Part shown: positions 23,028-61,478 of the stretch, one piece after another
Layout: each line of letters starts with the position of its first letter
Position numbering within the stretch: position 1 is the first letter of the stretch
DNA from: Pyropia yezoensis
Lineage: Eukaryota > Rhodophyta > Bangiophyceae > Bangiales > Bangiaceae
DNA length: 64,000 nucleotides
Reading direction: 5' to 3'
NCBI GenBank assembly: GCA_009829735.1
Contig: CM020619.1
Span: forward strand, 7,492,375 to 7,556,374
The notes under the pieces: generated by a model
Databases searched by the model: none
What the model was told of the DNA's origin: nothing
What the model saw: the letters and a program-made list of their open reading frames with translations, nothing else
Position numbers and translations under genes: made by a program

Positions 23028-23058
<31 letters not shown>

Positions 23059-26926: not shown

Positions 26927-26929
26927 CCG

Positions 26930-28430
26930 TTTGCATGACCTTGTGTCGCCGTCACCGGGCGGGTCGTGGAATGGGGCTGTGCAGGCGCAAGTACTTGGCC
27001 TGCCCCACCTAATCCATGGAGCACGTTGCATTGCACCGGCGGGGCGGACCAGGGGCGAAGAGTGATCTGCTGGGGCGTGGGTGTAGGGCGGGCGTGCGAG
27101 GGGGGCGGCAGGTGTTGGGTCCCCAAGCGTAAATGTAGTGCGCGGGGGGCCCACACTTTACGCTTGAGTTGATTGGCGAGTGCAAGGCTGGCGAGGGCTA
27201 CGACCGTGTCAGGGTGTACGCCCTGCCCACGTCACACTGGTGGTGACTGTCGGGCGGGAGAGGCCCGGTTTTTCACAGATGAGCCACCGCAAAAAACTTG
27301 GCACTCGTGCACGCGCACACATTAAGCGTATCGCCGGGCAGTCTTGAACTCCCGCCCGGCCTGCGACCGCTCGCGTCCCCTCGCATTCCGCTCCCGCCAG
27401 ACCGTCTGCGTGTGAACGCCCTTCTACTCGTTCACGTACTACACGCTTGCCCCGCTACGGACCCCCCCAGAAGGGGAAGCGCCGGCGAGACCCCATTTTT
27501 GTGAGGAGCATGAGGACAGCCTTGTCGAAAGGTATGCGCAGAGTTTTTTTTTTTTTTTTTTTTTTCGCCAGCACATCCTAAAAGTGCAGGAAGACGCCCT
27601 CAATCGGGTTTGCGGGTTGCGGATGCGATTGCGAAACCCCTCTCGCCGTACCGTCCACCCCAGCTTTCTCTATTTTTTTTGTGTACTTTCTGTTGACGTT
27701 TCGTCGGCCGACGCACGCACGCGCTGCATATATAGATACGACCATCATGTGAGGCATCATGCGCTGTGCTCTTTATTTACAAAAGCATATGACGCGGAGG
27801 GCGTACCTCTGTCTCCCGACCGTCCCATACATGTGCGCCCCACAGCCGCTGTCAAAACGGACCCGCATCATACTGTGGAAATGGGAAACCCGCTATGGAA
27901 GGGCTATGAACGCGCATTTCTCAGCTGGAGGAGCTGTACGATAAACAGTGCTGGCTGGCCGGTACTGACCCAGTCATCGAGACCTGACCGCGTGCTGAGT
28001 TTTTATCGGTTAATGCTCGCGAAGTCGTCACCCGGAGCCTTCCCGCAAATGTGTGTCCCGCAAATTTTCGCGTAGGGGGGGGGGAGGAGGCGAGGAGGGT
28101 GGGGTGGGGTTCGAATGGCGTTGGGCACATGCACACGCGCGTGCGGGTGTGGGCGCGCGCAGGGGGACAACCTGAAGAGGGATCCAAGCGGGGGGGTACG
28201 GAGCGCAAAGGCCCGCTTGCATTTCTGCGTTCATGGTCCACAGGAATGCTGGATGCCAATAATTTTGCCAGGCAGTGCAAGGAGTGTTGACTGACCCACC
28301 ACCTGGCGGGCACAGGCGAGCAGAGTGGAATTTATCACGTGAAGAGGAAAACATGTCCTAAAACAACCTGTGTACGTACGGTCGTTTTTCCTCGACCATT
28401 TATCAATTTGCAGCTCTGATTTCGAAACGG
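26930..28430. other. No gene recognised; one T homopolymer
   Basis: Contains a T run of about 22 at 27544-27565. Short frames have no recognisable features. Confidence 0.5.
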
Positions 28431-29640
28431 GGTGCTGTGACGCGCACGCATTCGTGCACCCACGCACGCGCGCATGCATGCGCGCGGCGCCCGATGAACG
28501 GGCATGCACGCGCGCATGCGTGCACGCGCGGCCCCGTCCCCCCACCGCCCTCCCCGCCGCGCTCTGTGTGTCCCACCCCCCACCCTCCCTTTCCCGGCCG
28601 TGCTGCGCACTTTCCCCCTCAACCTCTCCACGGTGTGCCGCGCCCCCTCCCTTCTCCCACCTTCCCTTTCCCGGTTGTGCCGCGCCCTCTCCCTCTCACC
28701 CTCTCCACGGTGTACCGCGCCCCCTCCCTTTCCCAACCCTCCCTTTCCCGGTTGTGCCGCGCCCTGTCCCCCATTCCCGACCACCCTCTCCACCTTGTGC
28801 CGCGCCCCCTCCCTTCCCCCACCACTCCCCCCTCCCCCCCCGCTGCTGATGGCGGCCAAGGCGGCGGGCTGTGTGGTGTTCTCGGCCGGACCGGTGCGTT
28901 TGGTTTGACCCGCTGTGGATGTGGGCGGAAGGGGCGCCGGGAGGGGGGGCGTGAGGCGGGGGGGGCGTGAGGAGGGGGGAAAGTGTGGGAGGGGTGGAGT
29001 GGAGGATCGGCGGCCGGCCGGGGGGGAGCACGGGAGCGGCGGCTCTGTTGGGGGAGGGGGGCAGGTCGCGCTAGCACCGGCGGCGCGGTTTCTTTAAACC
29101 GCACCGCCGCCGCTGCTGGCGTGCCGCCCCCGAGCCGCCCCCCCACCCCACGGCCGCTGATTCTCTGCCGTGCCTTTTTCGCCTCTTCCCCCCCACCCCT
29201 GCCCCATCCCCTCCGCAGGTGGCCCCGGCCAAGGCGGCGGCTTGTGTGGCGGTTGCGGCGGCCGGACCGGTGCGTTTGTTGTAGGGGGCGGGGCGAGAGT
29301 AGGGGGCGTGAGAAGTGGGGAGAGTGTGAAAGGGGTGGGGTGGAGGATCGGCGGCCGGCCGGGGGGGAGCACGGGCGCGGCGGCTCTGTTGCGGGAAGGG
29401 GGCAGGTCGCGCCAGCACCGGCGGCGCGGTTTCTTTAAACCGCGCCGCCGCCGCTGCTGGCGTGCCGCCCCCGAGCCGCGCCCCCACCCCACGGCCGCTG
29501 ATTCTCTGCCGTGCCCTTTTCCCCTCTTCCCCCTCACCCCCCTCTCCCACCCCTCCCCTTCCCCCCCTCGCAGGTGGCAGCGGCCAAGGCGGCGGGATGT
29601 GTGGTGTTGGCGGTCTGTGTGGTGCGCGTGGTGGCGAGGC
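28430..29640 (+). repeat. Tandem 5' exon/intron module heading the ParB-like gene
   Basis: A C-rich tract with repeated CTCTCCACGGTGTGCCGCGCC elements (28.6-28.84 kb) is followed by units of about 350 bp. Unit exons are 28849-28893 (starts with ATG; 45 nt), 29219-29269 (51 nt) and the start of the long exon at 29574. The first two end at a GTGCGTTTG donor, and the last two follow a C-rich GCAG acceptor. They encode MAAKAAGCVVFSAGP, VAPAKAAACVAVAAAGP and VAAAKAAGCVVLAV. The introns (about 325 and 304 nt) share a G-rich half, GAGCACGGG, and a hairpin with 12-bp arms at 29421-29432 and 29437-29448. The same module occurs at 41.96-42.97 kb. Confidence 0.75.
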
Positions 29641-32600
29641 CGACACCACTTGGTAGCTCTGTAGGAGCGATGGCTCCGGGAAAGGCCGGTGGCGGTGCCC
29701 GCGGTGGTGGCCGTGGCGGTGGTAGCGGCGGTGGTGGTGGCGGTGCCCGGGGTGGTGCCCGGGGTGGTGCCCGGGGCGGTGCCCGTGGAGGTTTCCGTGG
29801 TGGTGGTAGTGGTGGTGGTAGCGGTGGTGGGCGTGGCGGTGCCCGCGGTGGTGGTAGTGGTGGTTGTAGTGGTGGTGAACGTGGCGGTGTCTCTAGTGGT
29901 GGCAGCATCGGTCACGGAGCCGATAATGGCGACCGAGGATTCGCCCTGCGTAACGCTGATTGCGATGGACGTGCTGACGATGACGGCGGACGTCGGGATA
30001 GCGGCGGCACTGACCGACTTGGTCACGCTTTTCGCGACGCCTGCCGGCCTCGCCAAACGTTACGTGACGCTGCTGATCGTGGTCGCGGTCACACTCGAAG
30101 CACCGATCGCGGTGGACGTGGAGGCGATGACGGCGGACGTCGAACTGATGGCGGTGGTGACCGACCTCGCCCGACTTCCCGTGACACTACTGATCGTGGT
30201 CGCAGTCGGGCTCGTAGCACTGATCGTGGTGGAGGCGCAGGGGATGACCGCGGACGTCGGCCTGATGGCGGCGGACGTCGAGCTGATGGCGGGGCTGACA
30301 GACCTCGCCCGAATTCCCGTGACGCTACTGATCGCGGTCGCGGTCACGCTCGAAGCACCGATCTTGGTGGACGCGGAGGCGATGACGGCGGACGTCGGGC
30401 CGATGGCGGGGCTGGCCAACCTCGCACGACTTCCCGTGACACTACTGATCGAGGTCGCGGTCGTAGCGCCGTGCGTGACGGTCGGGATGGCGGTCGCTGT
30501 GGCGGTGGTGGTGGCGGAATTGGTGCATCAGCGGAAGCGGGTGGGGTAGGCCGACCAGGCGGCGGTGGAGACAGCGACGAGCGTGGCGTCGCTGGCGGCA
30601 GTTCCGGTCGTCGTACTGGCATCGGCGGAGCAAGTGGGTCCGGCCGACCGGCCAGTGGTGGAGACGGCGATGGCCGCGGCGTCGCTGATGACAGTCGTTC
30701 TGACAGCAACTCTCGGGCACCGTCTGACGATGAGCAGCTGCCACCAGCACCAGGGGATGATCCAGTACCACATATGGACAGAGGCGTGGTGACGGCGTCG
30801 GCGCCTACATGGGTTGGTCCTACCAGCGACTACGGTATCGCGTCGAAGCGGTATGTACCGATCGAGGCCATTCGCGTTGCCCCGCAGACGGTGCGTACTA
30901 TCAACCGCGGCACTGTCGACGAACAGCTGCGATCGTACCGCGACTTTGGTTATACGACCACGTACGGAATGATATCCGTATGCGCAGACCCAAAGTGTCC
31001 CGGGGCCGAGAATAGCTTTTTTTTCGTGGACGGCGCTCATCGACTGACGGCGCTGCGGGAGCTGCACAACGAAGGGCACGCCAACGCTGTCAGTGAGGTG
31101 CAAGTGGCGGTCATCGTTCGGCGTGACGGGCAACCCTTGACGCTAATGATGGCCCTCACGTTGGGTGTGCGCGCCAACTCGACGGCGGCCAAGGCCACAC
31201 CTACGTGGTCAACCGCAAGCAGGACCCCATGGACGTGGACCTTGCTCACCGTGAGTCCGATGAGGTGGACCGTTAACAAGAGGACCAAGACGACGCGACC
31301 GCCAGGGGCGGCCCGGAAACGTCCCGTATTGGCAAGGCCGTCTTGCGACGCATGACCAAGATTGCCCTGATCTACATTGAGGACGAGCGGTCTGGCGAGT
31401 ACATTATCAAGCGCATCACCGACTCTGTGGGCTAACAAGGCGATCATGCCTTGACGACCGACTCCGGCACTTTGCACTTTGTTGGGCGTACCGCTGCAAG
31501 ACTGCAATGAGGTGCGCCTGTGGATGCTTCAGGTCGGTTGGGAGTGGACAGGTCGTCGCAATGCGGGCAACAATGCCATCCGGCGGCTGACACGGGGCGC
31601 CGACTCTGCGTTCTTTGCAAATCTTGTCTATTTTGTGCGCTTCGCGATCAACGAAGCGAAGATGCGGCGCACCCTTCTTCGCCTCGCGTCGGCCAAGGAC
31701 CGTGCAATCGCAGAGGCGCAAGCGCTTACGGCTGAGTGTGCCGATTTCACACAAAGAGCGCCTCTGACGGACGTTTTGAAGCAGAAGCGTCGCCGACAGA
31801 ATCTCTCGCTGCTGAACGAGCTGCAGGTGTTGGTCCTCGCCGATTACGACGCTCCACAGCCACCGGCCCGAGCCGTCTTGGCTGCGGGTGGCGGTGGCGG
31901 CGGCAAGGGCAAGGGCAAGGGTCACCCCGGAAGCAGGGGCACGGCGGCGTCGGGTGGTGCAGAGGACCCTTTCAGGTTTGTGGAAGACCTTTCGTTTCAC
32001 GAGCTCTTCTTCCCCGAGTGGGCAGCCAAGGTGCGGGCCTTCATAACCCGTCCCCCGGATGAGCAGGACCGCCCCCTCCCTACCGATTCAGCCACCGCGT
32101 CGGGTACGGCGCCGGCGGCTACCAGGGCCGGTTTACGTGAAGGGGGTGGCAATAGTGCCGTCTCGGGGACAAGGCCTGATGCCGATGCCCGCATGGGTCG
32201 CCGTACCGGTGGCGATGGTGACAGCGACGGTGCTGGGGGTGGAGCTGGGAGCGGAGCTGGGAGTGGAGGTGGCGAAGGTGATGGTGGGGTCGGTGGCGGA
32301 GGTGATGGTGGGGTCGGTGGCGGAGGTGATGGCGAGGTTGGAGGCGACCACGTGACCGGCACCGACGGGGCCCCTGGTGGTGACGGTGACGACGGTGGTG
32401 ACGGTGGCGACGGTGACGACAATGGCGACGGTGGCGACGGTGACGACGGTGGCGACGGCGGGGGCGGTGGCGACGGCGGGGGCGGTGGCGACGGCGGGGG
32501 TGGTGGTAGCGGTGGCGACGACGGGGGCGGCGGGGGCGGTGGTGACGGTGGCGACGGCGGGGACAAGGCACCTGCTGTGCCTGACGTTGCGGGCACAGCC

Positions 32601-33931
32601 GGCCCCGCGGAGCCGGCCAACGGTGGCGACGGTGCCGCCGGCGACGCGGGCGCTCGCAAGTCAAACCGACTCTCGCGCCCGCGCAAACCAGCAGCGGAAG
32701 AGGACGATTCTGAATCTAGTGACGGAGCGCCCGTGCCACCGCCCAAAGAGAAGCGTCGCCGGACGGCGCCGGGAAAGAAGGGGAAGAGTGGTTCTGGTGC
32801 TTCCGGTGGCCGCGGAAGCGCTGGCAGTGGAGCGGGTGGCCGTGGACAAGGTGGCGGTCATGGGGCGTTTGCACGCAAGCGTACTGTCACACTAGGGCGT
32901 CCAAGTGTTCCAGGAGGCTCTCAGGAGGAGGACGACCAGGCGTATGAGGATACCGTACCCGACATCCCGGACAGTATGAAGGAGGCGGCCAAGGAGAATC
33001 TCCGAGCATTGGACCTCTCTTCCGGGCCTCGTGATACTGCTGTGCCGACGCCGCTGCCGCCCTTTGCTCTCCTGCTACCCCAGGAGCACCAGAGCCGCGA
33101 CTTTGTTCCGCGGTCCACGTGGGACGCAATGGGTAATGCGGCCGAGACGCTCATGTGTAACCGTGGCTTGGCGCGCCTTAACTACACATACCTGGCCCTT
33201 GACATGCCCACCGCCCCCCCCGCCGCGGTGGAGCGCGATCGACATATGCCCGACACCCGTTTGCTGCTGACCAACCTCACGCGTATCCAGTACGGGACTG
33301 AGCTTGTCGAGCGAGGCTGGACGGTGGTCAAGCACGCAATGGCCTGCATGACCCGTGTGGAGGGTAAAGGTGGCGCGGAAGTCGGCGTCGACGGCGCTGC
33401 TGTCTCGTCTGGATCATCTACACCCCCGACCAAGATGGACCCCGTCGGCGATTTCCTTTATTCTGTGATCAACAAGTTCCCAGGTGAAGCCGCGCTCAAG
33501 GACGACGACCCCATGTGGACGCCCATTCACACCGTCGACCTTGGCAAGGTTGACGAAACCGCAATGAAACGTGGTCAGGGGCGGCTCACCGTGCGACAGT
33601 CGGCTCTGGCCGCGAATGGGGACGATAAGGACTCGGACGTCTTGTACAAGACCAAGCAACACTGTGACATGCTGATGGCTGCCATGGCTCACCAAGTGCT
33701 GGTACCGACCACGGTGCACAGACGGCGCAGCAGCCCAATGAGCGCTCACTGGTGCAAGTGCTTAAGTCCGGCGCCCGGGTATTGCTGACCACCTCTCGAG
33801 CGGTGCGGCAACAGCCACACGTGGACGCCACTGTCCGTGCCGGGAAACCAGACCCCCCTGCTGACCAGAATGCGGACGACAGCCGCCGAGCGCCGCTGCA
33901 GACGTTCTCGCGCCCGCGCAGCCACAACTAA
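28849..33931 (+). CDS. ParB-like domain protein, multi-exon or partly decayed
   Basis: Proposed gene with leader exons 28849-28893 and 29219-29269 and a long exon from 29574 (first internal ATG 29670, MAPGKAGGGARGG). A Gly/Arg-rich region precedes a ParB/sulfiredoxin-like domain at 30.84-31.20 kb: RYVPIEAIRVAPQ, SFFFVDGAHRLTALRELH, LGVRANST. Frames then change. A coding-like segment (MTKIALIYIEDERSGEY) lies in frame +2, and the original frame resumes through the ORF ending near 33787. Candidate short introns are 31251-31336 (GTGAGT donor, GTTAAC branch) and about 31427-31511. The downstream part has a helical segment (FFANLVYFVRFAINEAKMRR), a Gly/Asp repeat (32.27-32.57 kb), a Lys-rich stretch and a globular C-terminus. 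Near 33.71 kb a frame change gives a tail ending at TAA 33931. Exon structure is unresolved; role presumably DNA binding. Confidence 0.55.
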
Positions 33932-33937
33932 TTTGCC

Positions 33938-34678
33938 ATGGCAGCCGGTAAGGATAGGTTCACTGTTGCCGTGTATCCCGGCAGCTTTCACGTTGTCCAT
34001 CGCCTGGAGAAGAAGCTGCATGTCCCGCATCTGGTGAGACCTGAGACGGTGGTTGTGCCTGCGGGTGGTCTCCTCGTCGTCCGCGCGGACGTTGCTCACT
34101 GTGGTGCCGGTCACGAGGACGATCTCTGGCGTCTGCGCGCCGCGCCGGCAGAGCTGTCCTACTCGCACTCCGTCCGGCTGCACCTCTACCTACAACGTTT
34201 TGACAAGCCGCTGCAGAACGCCATATACAAGGTCCCTGGGTGGTTGTTTGGTGAGGGCACTGGCGCCCCGTGTCTCGAGGCGAGCAGGTGCAAGAATTGT
34301 TGCGAAATGGTCTACGCCAGTGACGTGGAAGATGGCCACTCTGCAGAAGGGGCGGACATGTCAGACACCTCGTCCGGGGACAAGGATGATCAAGATGGTG
34401 CAGAGGACTCTCAGCAGTCGAGCTCGTCGGATGAAGACTACGATTCTCGAGGGCCGCCCAGGGTTGTGTACTACTTGACAGCGTTGTCTCTCTTGTCTAC
34501 AACTGCTTTGGTATTGTTGTTTTCTGTCATTTGTGGAAAGGTGGAGGACGTGGCCCGTCGGCTTTGTCATGGGATAATGTCTCCGTGCGGTGTTCACGCC
34601 GACGTTCCAGATGTCGATTTTCATAACGAGAGCTCTGGACGGCTCGCCGTACTGTCCACGACACAATCACGCTGCTGA
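33938..34678 (+). CDS. ORF with C-terminal half of a 2OG-Fe(II) dioxygenase-like fold
   Basis: A 246-aa frame starts at ATG 33938 in a good context (GCCATGG). Residues about 8-90 read FTVAVYPGSFHVVH, then VVPAGGLLVVRADVAHCGAG and SVRLHLYLQ. This resembles the distal part of a double-stranded beta-helix dioxygenase, where a late His (VAHCGAG) and an Arg-x-His strand are expected. The early HxD iron-binding pair is absent, so this is a fragment, a missing upstream exon, or a different cupin. An acidic Ser/Asp-rich linker and a hydrophobic segment (LTALSLLSTTALVLLFSVI), possibly a membrane span, follow. A strong GTAAGG at 33947 could instead be a donor. It starts only 7 nt after the TAA of the upstream frame. 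Confidence 0.4.
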   Translation: MAAGKDRFTVAVYPGSFHVVHRLEKKLHVPHLVRPETVVVPAGGLLVVRADVAHCGAGHEDDLWRLRAAPAELSYSHSVRLHLYLQRFDKPLQNAIYKVPGWLFGEGTGAPCLEASRCKNCCEMVYASDVEDGHSAEGADMSDTSSGDKDDQDGAEDSQQSSSSDEDYDSRGPPRVVYYLTALSLLSTTALVLLFSVICGKVEDVARRLCHGIMSPCGVHADVPDVDFHNESSGRLAVLSTTQSRC

Positions 34679-34732
34679 TGAGACGACACAGTCGGCGTCC
34701 GTGCCTCTTGTCGTTGGGAACACCCCCTGGTT

Positions 34733-34970
34733 CGCGTTATGTACGTAACGCGAGCACTGGACGGGCGCTCGTGCGACGGGGCAAGAAATATCTGACAGGA
34801 TTTTATTTGCACAGCAAAGATGGGTGGACAAGCCCGCCGCTGTGTCGTCGCGCGAAGCCGCCCCACCGGGGCCAGAGTGCATTGCAATCCCGTGTGACGC
34901 GTTATGTACAGAACGCGAGCACGGGCTCGGCGCGGGTGCTCTGAGACCTCGCGATGTTATGTACGTAACA
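34733..34970. promoter_or_regulatory. Three copies of the GTTATGTACRTAAC palindrome
   Basis: CGCGTTATGTACGTAACGCG at 34733-34752 (near-perfect 20-bp palindrome), CGCGTTATGTACAGAACGCG at 34898-34917, and TGTTATGTACGTAACA at 34955-34970. They lie upstream of the DNA methyltransferase-SET gene that starts at 35220. Confidence 0.85.
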
Positions 34971-35219
34971 AACCCATGGTTCCGATGCTGTAATTCTGTT
35001 AAATGCTTGGGAGATATGTTGGTAATGGACCAATCGGAAGAGGCGTTCCCTGTACTAAAAGCAAATTCATTTGTACTTAAGATACGATCGGTGTCAGTCT
35101 CCTTGCCGGTCTCCTCTCGGCACCGTCATCGCCGTTCCTCTCCACGTCTACTGTTCGCACGGTGCGACCTTGGCTGCGTTCTCTTCCGCGGTTTGTGGCC
35201 CCTCCTCCGCGTCACCACA

Positions 35220-38200
35220 ATGCCGTCAAGTGATTCTGTAGAGGTGGTCAACCTGGCCACAATCTTCGCAGAGCGTGCCGCGTTGGCGGTAGCGCGAGCA
35301 TAGACGTCTTCACCATCTTTGCCGTATCCTTGTGGGGTTGTCGTCTACGTCCTTGGGTCTTTGCGCGATCTGTTTGTCCTCCATTCCCTGGAGGGCAGGG
35401 GAGGGCTTTTGCTACGCTCTGGGACATGGGTTGATCTTGTCGACTGGTGCGAGCACCATTCCCGGCCTATGGTTGACGTGGATCCGGTCTATCTGTGGGA
35501 CAGAGTGGGCCAACCCAGGCTACATTCCCGCACTCGCTGGCTGCACGATAGCATCGCGCACGGGGTTTATGAAGCCGTGTGGGTACTGAAGCGGTTCATA
35601 GCAGTACCGCGTGCTTCCTTCAGTCTTGGTCGGGTACTGCGCTTTGCATCCGGGTCGCGGTGGCACACAGTGGCAACCGCGAGTGGAACTGTCCGCCGTG
35701 CTGGCGCCGAACACCCCTCGGATGACAAGGACATGCACCGGCAGCGGAACGTTAGGCTGGTGCCCGTCCCCGTGGACGATGATGTTGACCTGAGGGTGTG
35801 GCAACTGCTGCTTGTACTGGGCGGCGAGGTAGATGGCGTTGCCGTGCTCTGTCGTTGGGCGTCCCGCCGGCGGTGTCAGACGGAAGAGGAGGATGCCCCA
35901 GATCACATTGTAAGGGAAAGTTGGCGCGCGTGTCCCGGGCTAGCGCACCACCTACTGCTTCGCGACGTGCTCGGTGTGGGTGGTCGCCTTACCCCTTCAG
36001 ACACTGTGGACGACGACGACGACGACCTGTCCACTTTCCGTGCATTTGAGCGCGTTTTGTCCATGACGTGTTACTCCTGTCTTGAGCAACATCTCCGACG
36101 GGAATCCCGGTCTACATGGACTCCACACACGAGCGAGCAGGAAAGGCAGTACGAGGAGCGTCCAGCCGGCTGTTTGGACGGCGTGGCAGCCCGAATTCGG
36201 ACTATTGTTCGCGACGTCGTTTCTGGTTGGGATGTCGTGGCGCGCAGTCGGGGTTTTCGCTCCGCCGAGGGGATGCTGTCTACGCACACGCTCTGGTGCC
36301 CGTCTGTGGGCTTCTTCGTGGCGCTGTGGCGGCCATTGGACGCAGAGGATAACCTCACATCACCCGACGGACAGGCAGTGGACCTGCACACCAGCAAAGG
36401 GCCGGTCTGTGGTGGCACTGTCCTGGTACAACGGCAGAGCGCATTGTCAGGACTGCAGTCGGATGAACAAGATGATGAGCAGAACGCGGTGGGGAGGCTG
36501 ACGCCGCTTGCAGATGATCAGCTCCGTGCTGCCGCTGGCACCATGCTTGAGCACGTACACGTGTGCATCGGCGCAGACCGCGTGGGTGTTACGGTGACGC
36601 GCGGCCTGCTGGGCCGCGGAGGTCAAGGTAACGCGAGCGCCGCGACCCCTGCGGGCGACGGTGACGACGCATCCCACACTGGACAGCGGCGTCGTAAGCA
36701 GCGCAAGGTCGTGGGCTTCTTGACCGTGGAAGACTTCAGGCACCCAGAGTGGGACCGTTTGTCTGGCAATGTGCCTAGAGTACTGCGCAGCGTCTTGGCG
36801 GGGCTGATTGCGTTTTCAAGCCCCCCCCCCGCTGGCCGCGGGGTTACGGCGCCTGCGTGGGCGACGGCGTCTACCGTCGCTCGTCGGGGGCTGTCACCTG
36901 CGCCCGACCGTTGTGCATCTTCCGCCAGAACGATTGAGTTGGCGTTTCGTGCTGACTGCAGAGTGGCTGGCTTGATGGCGGAGCAGCAGGTGGTGGGAGG
37001 GTGTCAATCCGGGCTGTCAATTGGCCGAGGGGCGGCGTTGCTGTGTGGGGATGGCCGGCGATACCGGCCGTGTCAGCAGCCTCAGCGGCCCGACGGCCCC
37101 GGTGATGCTCCGCAGGCTGACCTGGGGGAAGCCTGGGGAGTGCTGGATGATGCCATGGGCCAGGTATGTGCGACCTACGCTTGTGGGTTTGATGACTTGC
37201 TCTCGGCACATGCCACATAAGTGGCGACGCGGACCAACGCGTCTCGTCGCAGGGGAGGTGGCGGAGCGCGTGGCATCCTCGGGGACGGTAGCGGCGGGGG
37301 GGGGGCGACGACACCCTCTACACCGACAGGCGAGCACACCCTCCCTCCCTTTATTATTTCTTCGGTACAGCTGGTGCTCTGTGATCCTCCGTACAACATT
37401 CGGGCGGACAGGAGCCTGGAACAGTCTGCACATGACGTGTTTACCTCTGACAACATGCAGCGTGCCGCTCGGTTGTTCCAGACCGTTGTCCGCCCTGGCG
37501 GCCATGTGCTCATTTTTTGCTCTGCGGTACAGCTGGGTCCGTGCATGGACACGCTCAAGGCGCTCAAGGATATGGACCCGGTGGGGAGGAAGAGCCTGTC
37601 GGCGTTTCGAGTGGACGGCCACCCGCTGGTGGCGATCAAGGACGCACACGCGGTGAACTCGCTGCGGCAGAGCACGACCAACCTGTCCAACAAGGTCGAG
37701 TTTATTGTCCACGCCACGCGCGCTGGGGTGTCCCGGGAAGAGTGCTACGCCATGGTCAACTACCGTACTTGGAACGCTGTGCCGTCGCGGTTCCTGGCAC
37801 ACGACAATGTTATTGACAATGTGAGACCGCCACACTTTAAGGAGGTGGTGCTTCGATGGCGGGACGGGTCGCGGCAATGGATACGACCAGAGCGAAAGTG
37901 TCTTGCCTTCATCCTCGAGCTCATATTGCGGTTTTCCCAGCCCGGGGACATCGTACTGGACACGCATGTGGGGACGTGTGTGACGGCGGCAGCGTGTATA
38001 CGGGCCGTCCTGGGCCAGCACCGTTTGGTCATCAGCTGCGACTCGGATGCTGTTGTCATGGACGCGCGTCGGGCTCGTCTGCGTCGGGAGTTTGTCAACC
38101 AGGTGCTGGTGGGGGGCTACGAAAGCTCGGGGGTCGTCACATCCGATGTCATTGCGGCCGCACGGACAATCGAAGCCGCGTCGGTCGCTGCTGCTACAGC

Positions 38201-39470
38201 TACAACAGCAGCAGGGGCGGTGGGGGAGACCGGCAGCGAGGGTCGAGGCGGTAGTGGTGCTGCTGTCGAGGAGGAGGTTGAGCTGATGATCAACCCACCC
38301 TCGTCTGTCATGGGAGATGCTGCTGCTGTCTGGGAGCCCCCCCCCGGGCTGCCCTGCCATTCTGCCTTGTCGTTCGAGCTGGTGCGATACTTTGCCGGGC
38401 GGTGGGCCATGCAAGCAGACGCTGAACGGGTGGGCCGCGTGGCACAGACGCCCGGGCTGCCGCGACCTGGGGCAGATGTGGGTGTCGAGATGGCCCGCCT
38501 GGAAGGCGTTGGCGTCGGGAGCTGGCCGCGCCTGTACCAGTGCGCCCTCGCCGTGGAGGACGCGGAGGTAGCGCTGCACGTGTCGGCCGCACACCTGGGG
38601 CTGTACGTTGCCCAAAGCCGCTTGGCGGGTGGGACGGACGGTCGTGGCGTCTTTGCGTTGCGCCCGTTCAAACGACAGGACGCGATTGGACCTTTTTGGG
38701 GGGCCATTGTGTACGCTGACCTCACAAAGCAGCGGGTCAAGACGCCGCGGTATGCCGCTTCTGTGCTGAGTGCCCACGGCCCCACGGCGCGGGAGTCTTC
38801 GGAGCGCGCGATGGAAGTGGTGTTTGACGAACTGGACGTAGATGGCCCGAATGACGCGGTAGAGGCGGACGTCGGGGGGGGTGGGCCGGGTAACCAGGAG
38901 CACGCTGACGTTCGCCCTCGCCACCACCGCCGCCGTCGGTACGATGGCGAAGAAGGGGGGGGGGGTGGTCGCACAATGCGAAAGCGACACAACCAAAAAG
39001 GCCACAACCACGGCGGCTGCGGCCCTGCTGCTGACCTCGGTACCGGAACATTGGCTGGATGCAGGGGCGTGCCGATATCTCTGTTTATCGTATCGTCACC
39101 ACTGTGTGTGACGGGCTATGTCAATGACGGACGGGCAACCTCCCCGGTTGATGCCGAAGCGACATTGGCCCAGACGGGCGCCGGGCCCGCGGACAGTGAT
39201 GGGAGACGAGGCGGCGCCGGCGGCAGACGTGGCGACCGGGGAGACGTCTGGCTGGTGCGACCAAACGTGGTCATCGTCGCCAATGTCGACGACGCGCAGC
39301 CGGTACGGCTGACGCCTGCACACTTTGTCAGGCCCGACATAATGGTGGTCATCGCGCTGAGGGACATTGCCGTTGGTGTGGAGCTCGTTGCGGATTACGG
39401 GCCGGACTATGTCTTTTCTTCGGCGACTGGGAGTGACGCGGCCGGGCAAGTGGGGCGGGCGTGCTCCTGA
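35220..39470 (+). CDS. DNA N6-adenine-type methyltransferase fused to a SET domain
   Basis: Model: exons 35220-35288, 35394-37163 and 37371-39470, about 1,312 aa. The start ATG (CACAATGCC; MPSSDSVEVVNLATIF) is in the same frame as the rest. In-frame stops at 35301 and 37218 fall inside the candidate introns. The second intron is strong: CAG/GTATGT donor, pyrimidine tract and TACAG acceptor, 207 nt, phase 0. The first (105 nt) is tentative. Residues 24-613 match nothing I recognise. The methyltransferase follows: DPPYN at 618-622 (motif IV), then VLDTHVGTCVTAA at about 808 (motif I). This order is typical of beta-class N6A/N4C enzymes, and DPPY favours adenine. The C-terminus (about 1035-1295) resembles a SET domain: GVFALRPFKRQDAIGPFWG, then IALRDIAVGVELVADYG, with a low-complexity insert. 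Likely a nuclear chromatin writer. SET is the less certain part. Confidence 0.8.
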
Positions 39471-39547
39471 GCCTTTCGACACCCCACACGTTTGCCCCCA
39501 TGAGCGGGTGAAGAGTGGGGTGGGGTGTGCCCGCTTTTCGTTCGCAC

Positions 39548-39596
39548 TTTGGATGGGGGGGGGGGGGGGGGGGGGGGGCGGGGGGGGGCGGGGGGC
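39548..39596. repeat. G homopolymer
   Basis: About 40 nearly uninterrupted G residues lie between the convergent ends of the methyltransferase-SET gene and the minus-strand coiled-coil gene. Confidence 0.9.
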
Positions 39597-39751
39597 GGTC
39601 TTGCAGACACGCAGGTGAGGGAGGGAAACGTGTGAACATCAGCCACGCATACGCACGGAGAAAAGCTACGAAGAAAAGCGAGGATGAAGAAGAAAACAAC
39701 AGAGAGACAATACAAAGCCGACGCCAGCCAGCCGGTGGCTGTGGCTCCCTG

Positions 39752-40843
39752 TCAACGGCGGCCAGGCTCCGGCCCTGCCGGCTGGTTCAAACGCCCACCC
39801 CCACCCAATCCGCCCCCGCACCCGCCCCCACCGGAGTCATCAGACCCCTCAAGGGAGTCGTCGTCGTCGCCCCGCTGCCGTGCAGCGTCTGCACGCGCGA
39901 GTGCGTCGCGGAGCTCCTCGTTACGGCGCCTCTGGTGTGCCAAGTCGTCGGACATCGTTTGTAGATTCCTCGAGGATTCGAGGAGCCTCTCCGACATCCC
40001 GGCCAAGATGCTCAGCGCCTCAGTGACGTGAGGAGTGGCGGGGTCGGACTCCCGGGACACGCGCACGGGACCTACCTCCGTGCATGGTCCGCCAGTGAAC
40101 ACCACGTTGGGTACGTCAGTACGCAGCAGCGCGGCCACATTGTTGGTCGTCTGCAGCAGGTTCTGTACGAGTGCGGCTTGCTCTGCCACCCGGCGGTTGA
40201 GGTCCTCCATCACCCCACGGCGCGCGCCCGTAAGTCTGCGACGGAGGAGCTGCCTCTTGGTCACTCTGCCCGCCTGGCCATCCTGTTCGGCGGCCCCCCC
40301 AGCCCCAGTGTCCGGTTCGAAAAAACTGATGCGCGTCAGCACGTCTTTGTTGCTGGTAAGGGGTGACTCGTCGAGTGCGGGGCCCGCCCCACCTGCCCCC
40401 TCATCCTCGTCGTCGTCAATGGCGGCATCATAGCACGGGGGCGGCTGCGCCGCCGCCGCACCCATTCCTCCGCCCGGTGCGGCCGCCGCGGAGTCGATGG
40501 CGCGCTCACCTGCCGCGCCGCCCTCGCCGGCCCAATCGGATGGCGCCCGTTTCCCGCGCGTCGTAGACACGCGCCGCATGACATTTAGCACGGCGTCCTT
40601 GACGGCCGTCGACAGGTCCAGCCGACCCGGGTTCCTCAGTTCGACTTCATGTCTGGTCCTTGCCGGTCCTGCCCCACTGCCGCCGTCTGCCTCGCTATGG
40701 GCCTCGAGTGCCAGGCGCCGAAAAGACGCCACAGCTTCATCGGCAACGTCAAAGACAGTGCGGAGTACATCTGGGTGCACATCACACGCGACGGCCAGCC
40801 AGGTCTCGGCGGCCGAGACGCGGCGCGCAGGGTTCCGAGGCAT
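39752..40843 (-). CDS. Coiled-coil protein of unknown function
   Basis: 363 aa from ATG 40843 (MPRNPARRVSAAETWLAVAC). The frame opens further upstream only through non-ATG codons. The N-terminal part is well mixed (DVHPDVLRTVFDVADEAVAS). The middle is Ala/Gly-rich with an acidic patch. Two helical stretches rich in heptad Leu/Met/Arg follow: one around residues 195-240 (LNRRVAEQAALVQNLLQTTN), the other around 272-322 (ILAGMSERLLESSRNL, QRRRNEELRDALARADAA). The C-terminal tail is Asp/Ser/Gly-rich. No catalytic motif is seen. It is tail-to-tail with the methyltransferase-SET gene and head-to-head with the helicase gene. Possibly an oligomeric partner (inference only). Confidence 0.6.
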   Translation of the reverse strand: MPRNPARRVSAAETWLAVACDVHPDVLRTVFDVADEAVASFRRLALEAHSEADGGSGAGPARTRHEVELRNPGRLDLSTAVKDAVLNVMRRVSTTRGKRAPSDWAGEGGAAGERAIDSAAAAPGGGMGAAAAQPPPCYDAAIDDDEDEGAGGAGPALDESPLTSNKDVLTRISFFEPDTGAGGAAEQDGQAGRVTKRQLLRRRLTGARRGVMEDLNRRVAEQAALVQNLLQTTNNVAALLRTDVPNVVFTGGPCTEVGPVRVSRESDPATPHVTEALSILAGMSERLLESSRNLQTMSDDLAHQRRRNEELRDALARADAARQRGDDDDSLEGSDDSGGGGCGGGLGGGGRLNQPAGPEPGRR

Positions 40844-41691
40844 GTCTGCGTAGGAGGGCCCGCCACCGCCGCCGCCGACGACCACACACCGGCAAACGGC
40901 GCGTCCAGGCAACGTTTGCCAGTCGCACGCAAGCCAGCAGCAGCAGTGCGCCCGTCACTACCCGCCTGCCCACCTTCAGACACCCCTGCGGTCGCCGCGC
41001 ACCCGTGGCGGCGGCGGCTACGGGCCCTTGAACTTGAAGCGCCCCTGCTGTCGCCGCCACCCGTGGTGGCCGCGGCCAAGAACGTCCCGGGGGCCGCTCC
41101 TGCCCACCTGGCAAATGCAAATGCTGTATGTACGCGCAGGGGGTCGCAACCGCCCAAGGGCAACGGAAGAATAAGTCGTCCAGTTACCGCCGACAGGCCA
41201 CCGGGCCAGGAATGCTCCGTGTCGGACGGTCTGGTCGGTACATACACGCTGCTGTCGGCGCCGCCTGCTCGAAATGGCTGCGCGAGCACGGGCTTGACGT
41301 CTCAGGGCCGTGACAGGGAATGCGAATCAGAACAAAGCGATATTTTGGCTGCCTTTAGTTCCATGCTAAATAGCCACGGGTAAGTCCCGGCATGTGTCCG
41401 GTGGTCTATGCCAGGACGAAATTCCGGTAGTCTATGAGGTTTCGATTCTGCAGGCTTGTCCGGCGAGTAGTCTTATTTTCACTTCCTGTGACAACCGACG
41501 GCGGTCTATATGCATAATACCGGATACACCGCGTTTCCCAGTCCATTGATCGATTGGAGTAGGGGTTACACAAACTCCGCGCTTTTTCAGATGTCCGCGC
41601 ACACGGAGTTTGCTCTACGATTTATCCGTCTGTCGATCTTACGAACGATTCTCCATTGTGGGCCCACAGCTCACACCCTTGCCACGAACCC

Positions 41692-41911
41692 TCCCCCCCC
41701 CCCCCCCCCCCCCCCCCCCTCTAAAGGAACCGCCCCCTCCTAATGTATCGCCCCTCCTATGTAATGAACCACCCCCTCCGATTGAACCGCCCCTCACTCT
41801 GATCTTGGGGGCGACGATCGCTAAGGGATGCGCTGAAAAGGCTTGTGGCTTTTCCGCAAACTACTAAGGGATGTGCTGAAAAGTCTTGTGGCTTTTCCGC
41901 AAACTACCAGT
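41692..41911. repeat. C homopolymer and 43-bp direct repeat
   Basis: A C run of about 27 at 41692-41719. Then two copies of a 43-bp unit begin CTAAGGGATG at 41821 and 41864, each containing TTGTGGCTTTTCCGCAAAC. No gene is seen between 40.85 and 41.96 kb. Confidence 0.85.
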
Positions 41912-41959
41912 GTGTAATACGCAGGACAAAAATCGTCGGGACAAAAATCGTCGTTTCCC

Positions 41960-42964
41960 GGGGCGCACGTCTCGCGGGCGTGGGCGCGCGAATGCATGCG
42001 CGCATGCGCGCGAACGCCCTCCCGCGCTCTCGCTCATGCGTGTGCGCGGACCGTGCGCGTGCATCCACGGGCATGCACGCGCGCATGCGTGCACGCGCGG
42101 CCCCCACTCCCCACCGCCCTCTCCACGGTGCGCCGCGCCCCTTCCCTTCCCCCACCTCTCCCTTTCCCGGATGTGCCGCGCCCTCTCCCCCATTCCCGAC
42201 CACCCTCTCCACGGTGTGCCGCACCCCCTCCCTTCCCCCTCCCCCACACCCCCCCCCCCGCAGGTGGCAGCGGCCAACGCGGCGGGCTGTGTGGCGGTTG
42301 TAGCGGCCGGACCGGTGCGTTTGTTGTGGGGGGGGGGGGGGCGAAAGAAGGGGGCGTGAGGAGGAGGGGGGAGAGAGTGGGAGGGGCGGGGTGGCGGATC
42401 GGCGGCCGGCCGGGGGGGAGCACGGGCGCGGCGGCTCTGTTGGGGGAGGGGGGCAGGTCGAGCCAGCACCGGCGGCGCGAAGTTTCAAACCGCGCCGCCG
42501 CCGCTGCTGGTGCGCTGCCCCCAAGCCGCGCCCCCACCCCACGGCCGCCGATTCTCTGCCGTGCGTTTTTCGCCTCTTCCCCCCCACCGCCCTCCCCCAC
42601 CCCCTCCCCCCCCGCAGGTCGTAGCGGCCAAGGCGGCGGGCTGTGTGGCGGTGGCGGCGGCGGCACCGGTGCGTTTGTTGCGGGGGGGGTGTGAGGAGGG
42701 GGCGTGAGGAGGAGGGGGGAGAGTGTGGGAGGGGCGGGGTGGCGGATCGGCGGCCGGCCGGGGGGGAGCACGGGCGCGGCGGCTCTGTTGGGGGAGGGGG
42801 GCAGGTCGCGCCAGCACGGGCGGCGCGGGTTCTCAAACCGCGCCGCCGCCGCTGCTGGTGTGCTGCCCCCAAGCCGCGCCCCCACCCCACGGCCGCTGAT
42901 TCTCTGCCGTGCCCTTTTCCCCTTTTCCCCCCACCCGCCTCCCCCCCCCCCCCCCCCCCCCCAG
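41960..42964 (+). repeat. Tandem 5' exon/intron module heading the helicase gene
   Basis: The organisation matches 28.43-29.6 kb: GCATGCACGCGCGCATGCGTGC, then CTCTCCACGGTGTGCCGC elements, then units with exons 42264-42314 and 42618-42668 (both exactly 51 nt) and the long exon at 42965. Each follows a C-rich tract plus CAG, and the short exons end in a GTGCGTTTGTTG donor. Introns are 303 and 296 nt. Peptides are VAAANAAGCVAVVAAGP, VVAAKAAGCVAVAAAAP and VVAAKAAGRVVLLCLA. No ATG-bearing first exon is evident here. Confidence 0.75.
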
Positions 42965-45900
42965 GTGGTAGCGGCCAAGGCGGCGGGCAGGGTGGTTTTG
43001 CTGTGTCTGGCGGCCCAGCCTGCGGGTGTTGGGGCGGCAACGAGGCCGGTGGGTCCGCTGGTGGGGATGGCGGTCACGCCACCGGTGGCTGACCCGGCTG
43101 CCGCGTCGGCGGTGGCGGTGTCGGCAGTCGAGTCAGTCGCGTCGGCGGGTACGGTGCCCGCCGCGTCGGCGTCGGCCGCGGCAGACGTGGTGGCCGAGCC
43201 GGCCGGTGTGGCGCCGGCGGAGCCGACTGTCTCGGCTGCAGCGGCGCCACCGGCAGAGTCGTTGGAGGCGGCGTCGGCGGGCAAGTGCACGGCAGCCTCG
43301 GTGGGTGTGGCGGCGACCGTCGAGTCGGCCGTGTCGGCGGGCATGCGGACGGCGGCGTCGGGGGGCGTGGCGCCGGCGGAGCCGCCGGCCGTGTCGGCGG
43401 CTGCGATGCCGGTCGCCGAGTCGGTTGCTGTGGTGCATGAGGCGTCACAGACTGACCCGATGGTCGAAGCGGAGGTGCAAATGTCGGGCGTAGCCCAGCT
43501 GATGGGGTCACCAGTGCGGGCGGCCGATCCGTTGGGGCGGCTGAAGGAGATGGACTTTGACGTCGACGAGATTGTGCCGGTGCGACCGGGCGGGTCTGCG
43601 CCTGTAGTGGCAGACGAGCCGGCGGAGACCATGCTGGACGTCATTCACCCAGTGGTGAGGTCCGCGGTGACGGGAGCGGCGGCCGTTGGTACCGACCCGG
43701 CGGGGGGTGCTATGGCCACGCGGGGTGACACGACGAGTGCCCTCGGACTGGTGCATGCTTGTGACACCCTCTTTGCTCGCATGGGCCCGCAGGCGACGTC
43801 CCAGGCCGACGCCTTGTGTGTCATCCAGACCATGTCGGCCCTTCTTCGTTGCGACCCGGGTGTACGGGTTGGCAAAGCCGCTGATGCCCACCTGTCCCGT
43901 CTGTACCAGCCGCACGCGAGTGACCCGGTCGTGGTACGTGAGATGGCAACCACTGTGAGGCACGCCCTTCGCGGCCCGGGCTTGGCCAACCTGCCGCGCG
44001 CCAACCTCGAGGCACCCGTGGACATGTTTGTCATCCCCATCATGGTTCCGAACGTGTGGCGGGCAAGAAAGGCAATCGACGACCTGTCTCTTCGGGCGGC
44101 GGCGGCGGTGGCAGCAGCGCCCACCCGGATGATGATCACCGGCGGGTCGGGGCAAAAGCAGCTGCGTCTCACCGCGCCTGGTGGTCCTGGTGGCCCCGCG
44201 GGTCCGGCTGCGCGTCTCACCGCGCCCGGTGGTCCTGGTGGCCCCGCGGGTCCGGCTGCGGCGCCGTCTCCCCGGTTTTTGGCGCTGACCCCCCCCCGCG
44301 CGGCCGGTCGTCGACCTGGGGCGGACGCGCCGCCGGCGACGCTTCCCGCGCAAGGTGCGCGTGCAGCAGACGCTGGCAGTGGGGGTGGTCCGGAGCTCGC
44401 CCACTTCAGCCGCGAGATGGTCGCTGCCGTCGGCGTCGCCTGCTCAAAACTGTTGCACGATCACGGGTCGCTGGCCGATTCTCCCTCCTGGCCGCACCAA
44501 GTGACCTTTTTTCGCACCGCCTGGTCCATGGGTGTCTGGCCCCCCGAGGCCCAGAGGTTCCTACTGAGCGCGTGTAGCGCAGACACTGCCATCGTCCACC
44601 GCGCGGTGCTGGCGGGCAAGGGAGGTGGTGCGGTGCCGCAGCCACAGCCGTTGAATCTACACACCCGCCTGTGGTCGCATTTGGTCGAGTCTGGCCGCAG
44701 CCTTTCCGCCCTGGGGCGGGGTCATGGCGACGGCAAGCTTGTTTCGGAAGGCGCAGGCAGCCCCGACGACGTGGCCCTGCTGATGTCCATGCCCGGGTCG
44801 TTGGCAATGTTGCCGACAGACTTCTTCGTCGCCTTTAAAGAGGTAGACGCATGGACAACCGTCACATGCGACATGACGGCGTTGCTGTTTTCGTCCGTTC
44901 TTGGCTCTCCGGGTGCTGGTACTGCTGTCGCGCCGGCTGCGGCCCTGCTCTCACGTGTTGCGAGTGTGACAGCATCAAACACTGGCGTCGGGTGGCTGGT
45001 AGCCCCCAGTCCACACTTCCGACGGACCGCCCGGCAGGTCATCCGCTGCCTGTCCGGTGTGGGTGGTCGGGGGGGCGGTGGGGCTGATTCGTGGTCCATC
45101 ACGGACCTGATGGATGGGTGTGCACCCGTCCCGTCCGATGAGGGGTGGCGCGCTGTGTCCGCCCGCGAGACCACCAGCGCTCCCGCCCCGGGTGTGTCGT
45201 CGGGTGGCCACCCACGGCCTTTTGACGCCCTGCGCGTCATCGAAAACGCCCTGCACTTGCTGGACGTCTCGGTGCGCGCTTGCGGGGAAGATCGTGCCTG
45301 GAACGGTGTCCCCCTGCAGCAGTTTGCCGTATGTACGGCGTTTGTGCGGAGCAGCCGGCAAGTGTTGGCGGACGTGGGCGCGGGGAGCCCGCCTGCGAGC
45401 TCACCCGGCGAGTCGGTCAAGCGGCGGGCGAGCGGAGCGCTCGCCCGTGTCTTGCACCTGCTCATGCGGCTGGACATCCACCGAGACGTGAAGCGCACAC
45501 GGGGTGTCGTCCAAAGGGCCTTGGTCTCGTGCCTCATCCTACTCTCCGAGCACAAGCGGTTCTGCACGCACTTTGATATCATGGACGCGGCAAACCTGGC
45601 CCCCGTTGTCAACGAGTGCATGGAGGCACTCCCGTGGCTTTGGGAGGTTCTTGTCGGGCACGTGGAGGCGGACCGGTCACTATACAACTGGTTGTACTTC
45701 GTGGCCGTCCATAACCTGGTGCGGACGCCTCTTGCGGTTGGCGTGTGGGCATCTCGGCGGGTGTTGTCCCAGTCAACGTTGGATTGGTTGCCGTCACCGT
45801 TGGACCTGCGGCCCTGGGTCGGAGAAATCGGTGGTACGACCTGTTCGGAGGTCCTCCACGCGCTGAAGGGTGCGCTCTGTCCGCCGGCCAGGCCTGGCAA

Positions 45901-48900
45901 GGGGGCCAGCCCCCTGGTCGTACGACTACGTCAGCGCATCGACAAAGTACTGAGCGGGTATGCTGTGCCAGACGACGCAGAGGCGGGTGTGGGTGCAGCA
46001 GCAGCTGCCGCCGGTGCTGGTGCGGTTGCGGCGGCTGCCGCTGGGGCGGGTGCAGCAGCTGCCGCTGGGGCAGGTGCCGGCTCAGGAGCCGAGCACGATG
46101 GACCGCCACCCGCAACGCCCGGTGTGGACAGTGCGAGCCCACCAGGTGACCCAGACGCCTTTTCCATTGGCGACGACGCGGGGGGCGAAGTCGAGTTTGT
46201 GTGCTACCTACCCGCAGTGGCCGTCCCAGACAATGTGTTGGCTGCGCAGGCAGTTTCCCCTGTCTACAATGCTGAACCCTGCAACGTCATTGTGTTCATT
46301 AACGACGACGATAACTGGAATGACGCAGAGAACGATGACGTGACTGTCGTCAGTGTGGCCCGGGTGGTCGGGGCCGGCCAGCTGGTCGGGCAGCGGCGGA
46401 CGTCCTCCGCCACTGGGGCGGCCGCCCATGTGGCAGTAGCTCAGAGTGCTGCCACCTCTGTCGCGACGGTAGCTGCCACCTCCTCCGCGACGGCTGCCGT
46501 CCCAGGCGGGCCCTCTACGCCCGAGGTTGCTGTTACAGCTGCTGCTCCCGATGCTCCATCGGCAGCGGGTATGGCCACAGGCGCGGTGGATGCTGTGGCT
46601 GTGGGTGCTCCTGGCGTTGGTGGGGCTCCTGCGGGCACGGCGGCCGTGGCCGACGCGGGTGTTGGCGGAGGTGCACCTGCTGAACATGGTACTGCTGCAG
46701 CAACCGACACCGCGGGGGTGGCTGCTGTGGGCACGGCAGTGGCTCGGGGGGAGGAGCCCTCTCCCGCTTTGCCTGCAGTTGCAGACTCGGGGGCAGCTGT
46801 TGTTGGAGGTGAGACTGCCAGCGTAGGAGGCCCTTGTATCGGTTCCCCGGATGGTGGGGCGGACGCGTCTCCCACTGCTGCACCTCCGCCCGCGGCGGCG
46901 GCGGCGGCGGCGGGGGGTGATGCCAGCCAGGCCAGTCCTCCCACACTGTGCGGCGCGGATGGTGATCGGGTGGCGCTCGGTCAGCTGACGCTCTGTACGT
47001 CCGAGTCGGGGTGGAAGGGAGTCCCAGCCCACCTGCGCCCTTCCCCGTTGTACGCAGGAGGACCTGAGGGCCACTGGCAGGCCATCGTTGTCGCCACCTT
47101 ATGCCAGCTCGCCGCCCGCGGTCCAGAGGCGGTGGCGCAGTCTGTCGAAGGGAGCAACAAGGGCCATGGCGGCGGCGGCGGACGCAGTGGGCGCGTGACC
47201 ACATCGCCATTGTGCTCCCGCTTTGGCGTGGCTCGCATCGACGCGCCCAACACCCTGTCGTCGCCGCAGGTGGGGGGCTCCATCCTGGACGACCCGCGGG
47301 CGTGTCGCATGTGCAACGTGCTCGTGCGTATGCCCGCCCCCCGGGGTGGTCCCCCCGGTGGGGGCGGCCGCCCTACCGGGGGATCCGCTGGGCGCCACCA
47401 CCGCCGCAACAAGGACCGCGGGGGAGAGTGTCAAGTGGACCCCACAGACGCCACCCTGGGTGATTTGTGTGCCTTTTGGGTACCGGAACCCGTCGGCTTG
47501 GTGTGCAGCACCCCCGTGGACGCCGTGTTTATTGGCCGCTGCGAGGACAAGGAGGGGCAACCCGGCGGGGGAGTTGGTGGCCCACCGCCCGCGGGGGCAG
47601 GCCAGTGGTGGGTGGACAAGACGCCTGGCCCGGGGCTGGACGAGCAGGACGATGACGCCGGCAGGGCGCGCCACGGTGGCGCATCCGGTCCCCCCCGGCG
47701 GTGGTGGTTTGCGGTGCGTCGTTCAGACGTGCGGCGGATGCTCAATCGCCGGACGGCAAATGTGGTCGTCACCCTGTCTCATAGTGTCCTGTCGGACAGC
47801 CGCGAACTTGGCGGCCTCGGCCACTGGGAGCTTCTTTTGCCAGTCATGCAGAGGGCGCTCGCCATCCACGCAACGCCTCCGCACGTGGGACAGCAGGTGG
47901 TACCTGTACCGGCACCGGGGCCTCCCCCCCTGCAGAGTGCTCCTCCACGCTACGCCCACCTGGACAAGTTCCAGTGGCGCGCAGTCGATTGCATGCGCCA
48001 GGGGCTGTTGTCGGACGAGTGTGACGTGCAGCTGGTGACGGGCCCCCCCGGGACGGGCAAGACACGCGCCATTGTCTCCATGGTGGACATGGTACTTGGG
48101 ACCCTGCCAGACGGGCGGCTCCTGCTGACGTCGCGCACCAACACGGCGTGCGACGAGCTGTTGGACGCAGTGCACGAGTTGTTTTGTCCGTCGGGGGCTG
48201 CCAGTCGACACGGCGTCGCGAAACCCGATGCCGTGACGCTCCTCCGTGTGGGTGAACCCATTCCGGATGGCCACCGTGCCAAGACAACGCAAATTGACGC
48301 CGTGGTGGACGAGCGCCTTCCTGTCGCCTACCCGTCCGTGACAGCCGCGGTGGAACGGGCAAGGGCACGGGTGGCCGATGTGGGCCGTCGTGTGGATCGT
48401 TTCCGCGCCCAGGGTGCAGAGCCGGGCGCGGGTGGGTCACAAATCCTCCTCGAGGAATGTGCCGATGTGGAACAAGCCCTGGAGGCTGCCTTGCGTCGCC
48501 AGCAGCGTGCGGAACGGGAGCTCCGCAAGCGCATCGTGGGCGGCGCGTCCGTCATTGTCACAACAACGTCAACGTCGACGGGGGCGCTCGTGGGGGGTAA
48601 AGGCTTTGACGTCATTATCATTGACGAAGGGGCGGCAACAAGCGTCCCTGCGTCTGTCGCCGCCAATGTTCGCGCCAAGCGGGCGGGGCGTGCGGGTGGC
48701 TCGTCAGACGAGGAAGAGGACGGTCATCCGGCAGAGCGGACCAAGTGCATTGTCCTTGTTGGCGGCAATGCCCAGCTGAGGCCGAGCGCCGGCATGGAGT
48801 ACAGAGGCGAGACACGGCCGATGACATCAAGCGTTTTTGAGCGGCTCGCCAGGTTTCTGGCCGCTTGCGTCATCCTCTCCGTGCAGTACCGCATGCGGCC

Positions 48901-49543: not shown

Positions 49544-49629
49544 GACAACGTCCGCCATAGGTGGAGCCGTCCAGATCGACCGGGCCGCGAGCACATCAAC
49601 ATTGTGGCTCCCGACAGGGTGTTCTAGTC

Positions 49630-61476: not shown

Positions 61477-61478
61477 AA

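Follow-up and report, generated by a model that had tools for sequence, protein, structure and literature searches.

A gene fusing a DNA amino-methylase to a SET domain is carried by a giant repeated element of the red alga Pyropia yezoensis

Does the 64,000-nucleotide stretch of DNA analysed here (hereafter called the window; C2:7492375-7556374 of the 107.5-Mb Pyropia yezoensis assembly) harbour a working host gene that joins a DNA methylase to a SET domain, or does this gene belong to something else? A first-pass annotation of the window had proposed that a beta-class DNA methyltransferase and a SET domain are encoded together by one intron-containing gene. We found that the two domains do belong to a single polypeptide, and that they represent an old protein family rather than a one-off, as evidenced by sequence profiles, the predicted fold, relatives and matches to PDB sequences. 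The fusion gene is part of the cargo of a giant, multi-copy repeated element. The copy found in the window is a pseudogene whose S-adenosylmethionine (AdoMet) binding motif is damaged as well, and intact copies exist elsewhere in the genome. The coordinates of all features are collected in Table 1.

The second piece of the gene is an open reading frame (ORF) of 749 codons. The nearest named proteins are the P. yezoensis hypothetical proteins P0001-P0003, with 84-94% identity in local alignments, and a hypothetical protein of P. vietnamensis, P0006, is 44% identical to it by the same measure. In the methylase domain of the family the DPPY motif precedes FxGT, as in beta-class amino-methyltransferases. 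When run against PDB sequences, the family profile matched the methylases M1.HpyAVI (E=2.1e-13) and CcrM (3.7e-8). Fold searches with the model of the whole P0015 protein yielded rows filled by methylases and did not probe the SET part. The methylase part is predicted to methylate an exocyclic amino group of DNA, and the best folds and profile matches make adenine N6 more likely than cytosine N4 as its putative target.

The same family profile matched SET proteins of the PDB, namely MLL3 (2.6e-6), SETD8 (6.7e-6), an EZH2 chimera (2.1e-5) and the PBCV-1 vSET protein (2.5e-3), and P0023 matches the full SET profile with 28.5 bits. The first-pass annotation had called for structure prediction and for searches with hidden Markov models of both domains. 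The searches found the two domains, with the window ORF scoring just under the cut-off for SET (see below), and the predicted structure together with the family profile supports a SET fold across the whole domain. The GxG motif and the E..Y pair, which includes the catalytic-type Tyr, are invariant in 23 aligned rows. The SET substrate may be a lysine of a histone or of another protein, and it is possible that the protein writes both DNA and histone methylation, as had been suggested.

The family set of 72 proteins gathers the returns of three protein searches, each scoring approximately 8,000 candidates, and the numbers refer to the matches listed. With the 749-residue ORF of the window as the query 17 proteins were listed, and with the methylase-SET part of P0012, 62, which carry precomputed PF01555 labels in all cases and PF00856 labels in 22; a search with alignment A2 listed 2 matches (8,000 candidates). 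All 18 proteins picked from the 72 for alignment A4 match both Pfam models at E<=0.01. From 21 labelled members we derived a SET profile, which detected the domain in 59 of the 72 proteins at E<1e-5, including 38 of the 51 non-seeds, and in none of the shuffled sequences. The protein encoded by intact copies consists of a conserved, mostly helical N-terminal half followed by a CcrM/HpyAVI-like beta-class amino-methylase and a C-terminal SET domain. No Pfam ParB domain was detected in 8 relatives, in 19 members at E<=0.1 or in the N-terminal part of the window gene, and no chromodomain in the scans of 19 and of 18 members. By eye, the N-termini of P0041, P0044, P0046 and P0050 look ParB-like, without a Pfam ParB domain.

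We also searched prokaryotic and viral collections. Alignment A4 matched 17 loci in GTDB, and at least 75 in IMG/VR among the matches listed, in both cases through the methylase domain and within query residues 248-569, and none of the IMG/VR matches listed reached into the SET part; IMG/VR scans with single family proteins gave no relatives. Because the matches listed in these GTDB and IMG/VR scans are to the methylase domain alone, the fusion looks eukaryotic.

Two in-frame stop codons interrupt the gene in the window. In the first-pass model each of them lies inside a phase-0 intron with GT..AG-like borders, and the locus would be a functional host gene. However, other copies and other species retain both stretches at the protein level. 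'Intron 1' encodes ..SPSLPYPCGVVVYVLGSLRDLFVL.., with ..SPALPYPGKVVCLCVAELRDLFIL.. as its aligned counterpart in P0011. 'Intron 2' encodes VCATYACGFDDLLSAHAT, the stop and then VATRTNAS (which begins at a GTG codon, shown as M in the ORF list), and this segment is uninterrupted in P0001, P0003 and P0005. In alignments with distant relatives, C-x-F-x-x-L is kept in this region, and VQLVL.DPP downstream of it. Sense codons stand at the positions of the stops in every other fetched copy that aligns there, the count for the second stop resting on 17 alignments with overlapping loci counted once; this comparison covers the fetched copies and leaves out at least 12 listed loci of the window's subfamily. 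Stop-free frames of 1,530 residues at C3:27340253 and 1,502 residues at C2:12173205 are also present. It had further been argued that removal of the second intron restores the frame exactly. The proposed introns are 105 and 207 bases long, both multiples of three, and the ORFs at 35304-37220 and 37221-39470 share one reading frame; therefore, restoration is automatic and removal restores nothing. Protein conservation across both stretches, sense codons at the stops and stop-free copies led us to reject the intron model, which the damage to motif I of the window copy also disfavours, and we regard a functional host gene with hidden stops as hardly credible.

Decay is evident elsewhere in the window copy. 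In its AdoMet motif I, HV replaces the F-x of DxFxGT, with Phe found in all 10 other fetched copies (17 alignments), and its last C-terminal residues are unlike the tail of intact copies. Among the 11 other near-full-length matches of the window's subfamily, 5 are devoid of stops and 6 contain one to three; decay has thus reached further copies too.

The genome contains at least 72 matches to the ORF, which we grouped by hand into 23 loci of the window's subfamily (best piece at 82-100% identity) and 26 diverged loci (32-62%), and all these match and locus counts are lower bounds. We compared the 20-kb neighbourhoods of 10 copies with the window. Nine of them share sequence well past the gene, with unbroken stretches of, for instance, 9.7 kb (94% identity) and 10.1 kb (93%), and for the tenth, C1:8115k, the shared sequence corresponds to positions 35820-40588. 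Near the copy at C1:8113868, a second, inverted partial gene copy lies at L024:9571-9971 (about C1:8125.7k). The helicase gene, the right flank and the right end of the element are repeated at many common loci. On its right side the element ends sharply: of 62 rows, 32 extend from query base 1 to 930-935 and one to 952, the others being fragments or matching elsewhere in the query. All 11 copies read have the right end ..ACCGATAG in common, after which each has a distinct flank. In reverse complement, this end begins with ACTATCGG in 10 of the 11 copies, and no left end was found to pair with it as CACTA-type terminal inverted repeats. Among 10 copies fetched through their junctions, 9 have a methylase-SET match inside, and the copy at C1:35.2M has none among the matches listed.

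The element copy of the window spans at least 50.4 kb, or approximately 37 kb or more of its own sequence after subtraction of a nested repeat, hereafter repeat X (4.1 kb), and a gypsy retrotransposon (9.4 kb). At three loci (C1:21515332, C2:19559468 and C3:19669066), the same helicase (91-94% identity) and the same right end are present, but the methylase-SET gene is merely 37-42% identical, indicating that several lineages of the element, at least two, have retained this gene. The element presumably moves as one unit. A start at position 24690 was considered for it and rejected: in ten other copies the sequence continues leftward and resumes in the window at 20509-20606, with repeat X in between. 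A Helitron identity was set aside as well, Pfam giving UPF1-type AAA_11/AAA_12 and no Helitron model for the helicase.

Given its size, its repetition and its many unusual ORFs, the unit might also be an endogenous large DNA virus, all the more as algal viruses also carry ParB-, helicase- and SET-type genes. However, no capsid, packaging or DNA polymerase families appear in the Pfam matches of the subset of ORFs scanned, the reverse transcriptases seen belong to nested or neighbouring retroelements, and the IMG/VR matches listed are to the methylase domain alone. A viral rather than transposon origin of the gene is therefore improbable in our view.

We next considered the selection that acts on the gene. 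Comparison of an intact copy (L007) with a member of a diverged subfamily (L126) gave ratios of non-synonymous to synonymous substitution rates (dN/dS) of 0.14 for the methylase (248 codons), 0.20 for the linker and the N-terminal part of the SET domain (157 codons), 0.33 for a short middle part of the latter (30 codons) and 0.27 for the N-terminal half of the protein (452 codons). These ratios are rough because dS is high (0.87-2.0), and they are raised because L126 carries a stop codon and adds its own decay; in the 57-codon region of 'intron 2' dS is saturated, hence no ratio is given. Within these bounds, they show that, between the two subfamilies, the methylase has been under purifying selection, as have the linker and the first part of SET. 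Near copies have higher values, 0.58-0.76 for L007 versus L005 and 0.60-0.64 for L007 versus the pieces of the window. Such ratios fit an element with lineages that are kept functional while individual copies decay. Purifying selection between subfamilies could also speak for a domesticated host epigenetic gene family amplified by segmental duplication, but the dispersal of the copies, with a common right end and unrelated flanks, the stops in 6 of the 11 other near-full-length matches and the near-copy ratios make this very improbable.

In our interpretation, the locus is probably a cargo gene of a giant mobile element, present here as a pseudogenised copy, and the intact version would be a transposon-borne dual methylase marking the DNA and the chromatin of the element. 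The methylase would modify an exocyclic amino group, likelier adenine N6, in the DNA of the element itself, and the SET domain would methylate a lysine on a chromatin protein in the same location; either the SET part or the N-terminal half may assist targeting. Being encoded on the element, the fusion protein would, by analogy, target the element itself. The joint mark might keep the element copies expressible or shield them from silencing, allowing movement; alternatively, it might settle the copies with the host. The pairing of the two domains suggests that mobile DNA may mark its chromatin as well as its own DNA.

A number of observations weigh against this interpretation. The SET match of the window ORF has an E value of 2.9e-4 and 21.7 bits, versus a Pfam cut-off of 22.4, and covers only 23 residues (705-727), and a Foldseek search with the SET model gave no matches at E<=0.001. 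The canonical SET motif NHxC is not conserved, ND being found in place of NH in at least 90% of aligned rows, and SET catalysis is not assured because of this replacement. Thirteen of the 72 proteins (P0003-P0005, P0007, P0011, P0016, P0025, P0061 and P0068-P0072) lack SET at E<1e-5; some of them are pieces cut at contig ends or frame-broken, and P0069-P0071 resemble methylase-only proteins. The selection test is based on a single pair of sequences, of which L126 is itself interrupted by a stop, and it covers the SET domain up to before its last part, which contains the E..Y pair. Finally, we did not find the element's left end, the shared sequence having been followed to at least position 15547, and no transposase, including those of the EnSpm type, was detected by Pfam in the element ORFs scanned, which do not reach that left end.

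The chief rival to the dual-writer interpretation follows from some of these points. The SET part might be a catalytically dead scaffold or a reader-like part, with the DNA methylase as the sole working enzyme, serving for self-marking of the element or against silencing, as in algal ParB-methylase proteins. The ND residues, the weak SET scores and the SET-less P0069-P0071 proteins are in line with it, as is a ParB and N4C/N6A methylase protein reported on the Ectocarpus transposon Sola1-1_Ec32 (PMC12477816). On the other hand, the GxG motif and the E..Y pair are invariant across the 23 rows, and the linker and N-terminal part of SET are constrained (dN/dS of 0.20). We consider a dead SET domain unlikely, if less so than the other alternatives.

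Returning to the dual methylase, a wider proposal is that dual writers of this single-chain type are encoded by mobile elements of a class widespread in eukaryotes. Such a writer would methylate the element's own DNA (to N6-methyladenine, 6mA, or N4-methylcytosine, 4mC) and also a lysine of the histones that package the element, generating a self-made heritable chromatin state. We put this forward tentatively, as plausible but somewhat short of probable. In eukaryotes, DNA and histone methylation are normally linked through separate proteins that read each other's marks. If the proposal holds, one polypeptide with both catalytic folds would represent a compact system to test the coupling of the two marks, and mobile elements would write chromatin states, beyond merely escaping them. 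The protein family is represented on the repeated element of this red alga and by many proteins from metagenomes. With the family, its intact members and its conserved residues now identified, the question of the dual mark is directly testable.

Other genes and mobile DNA are found in and around the element (Table 1). The tail of the 1,816-residue ORF of another copy (L019:3-5450), to which 33938-34678 corresponds, has the look of a 2-oxoglutarate oxygenase by eye, without Pfam or NCBIfam support. The 1,579-residue frame beside the right end contains DEFNTSQACSEC..CYTCS..NRDDVAARNIAW and resembles, also by eye, the RuvC/zinc-ribbon end of TnpB/Fanzor proteins; its scores with the Pfam Cas12f1-like_TNB model are 17.4 bits for a part and 11.4 for the whole, both under the 26.3 cut-off, and it has neither NCBIfam matches nor matches to TnpB/Fanzor-type PDB entries. 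Repeat X is bordered by the terminal inverted repeats CCTCGGCGACCGGAACCAC and counterpart, and other copies of X stop at the same point. A RING-finger ORF (zf-RING_2, 2.2e-9) is located at 26078-26926, inside the element. The segments 28939-29613 and 42225-43009 are related repeat blocks in coding-looking parts of the element and cross-match between copies. The window has no Rfam matches at the gathering score and no tRNA.

Table 1. Coordinates of the fusion gene, its domains and other features, in window positions unless stated otherwise
Feature	Position	Strand	Remarks
Decayed methylase-SET fusion gene copy (pseudogene)	35220..39470	+	Two ORF pieces, 35220-37217 and 37221-39470
Premature in-frame stop TAG	35301..35303	+	Sense codon in 9/9 other fetched copies aligned there
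Premature in-frame stop TAA	37218..37220	+	Sense codon in 10/10 further fetched copies that align at this site
Beta-class DNA amino-methyltransferase domain (PF01555)	37365..38003	+	Pfam N6_N4_Mtase E=1.2e-9, residues 49-261
Motif IV DPPYN	37383..37397	+	
AdoMet motif I, VLDTHVGT in window copy (degraded)	37953..37976	+	D-x-F-x-G-T in 68/72 family proteins
SET domain, interrupted by long low-complexity insert	38601..39398	+	GRGVF 38640-38654; ND 39123-39128; E..Y 39381-39398
In-window part of giant repeated element	15547..64000		Right end ~2.4 kb past window; leftmost shared sequence reaches at least 15547
Element ORFs 31455-33788 and 33938-34678	31455..34678	+	Match parts of one 1816-aa ORF in copy L019
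2282-aa ORF, UPF1-type SF1 helicase (AAA_11/AAA_12)	42695..49543	+	Element gene; helicase part has 82 genome matches
1579-aa stop-to-stop frame beside right end of element	L033:1406-6142 = C2:7553905-7558641		Crosses right edge of window; gene part right of window 61956
Nested 4.1-kb repeat X, terminal inverted repeats	20605..24689		AT at both junctions, inserted in element
Nested Ty3/gypsy chromodomain long terminal repeat (LTR) retrotransposon	52567..61955	-	LTRs 52567-53038, 61479-61955
Copia-type reverse transcriptase (RVT_2)	7562-8896		
DDE_3 transposase	4196-5218		

Separately, each half of the fusion has well-known relatives. The beta-class adenine methylases CcrM, M1.HpyAVI and RsrI are bacterial, and their listed PDB chains, of 232-366 residues, are too short for such a fusion. 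SETD8, PRDM9, MLL, EZH2 and viral vSET resemble the family in predicted fold and profile, with GxG and the catalytic-type E..Y kept; the family differs from them by having ND where NHxC has NH, by its long insert and by the attached DNA methylase. Adenine and cytosine methylases are said to have been acquired by several eukaryotic transposon families, reportedly set out by Iyer in 2011. In the open-licence literature, as far as the available parts of the sources go, we found no description of a DNA methylase-SET fusion in a transposon, two likely relevant works lying outside that search.

The closest parallels come from other mobile elements and from a rotifer. Accessory proteins with ParB and N4C/N6A methylase domains are described for Ectocarpus Sola1-1_Ec32 and for cited green and red algal relatives (PMC12477816). 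Like the protein studied here, they are cargo of giant algal transposons and include a DNA methylase; they differ in that the part of the article available describes ParB and methylase without naming SET, and 8 relatives here are devoid of a Pfam ParB domain. SET genes, likewise transposon-encoded, are mentioned for the HarbingerS and MuDR elements of oomycetes, but these are other types of transposons and no DNA methylase is named in the portion consulted (PMC12730594). Bdelloid N4CMT is a methylase joined to a chromodomain, a reader rather than a writer such as SET, and it is a host gene, unlike the element-borne fusion (PMC8885841). Methylases and SET genes borne by transposons are already known, and, judging from the literature searched, the fusion of both in a transposon may be new.

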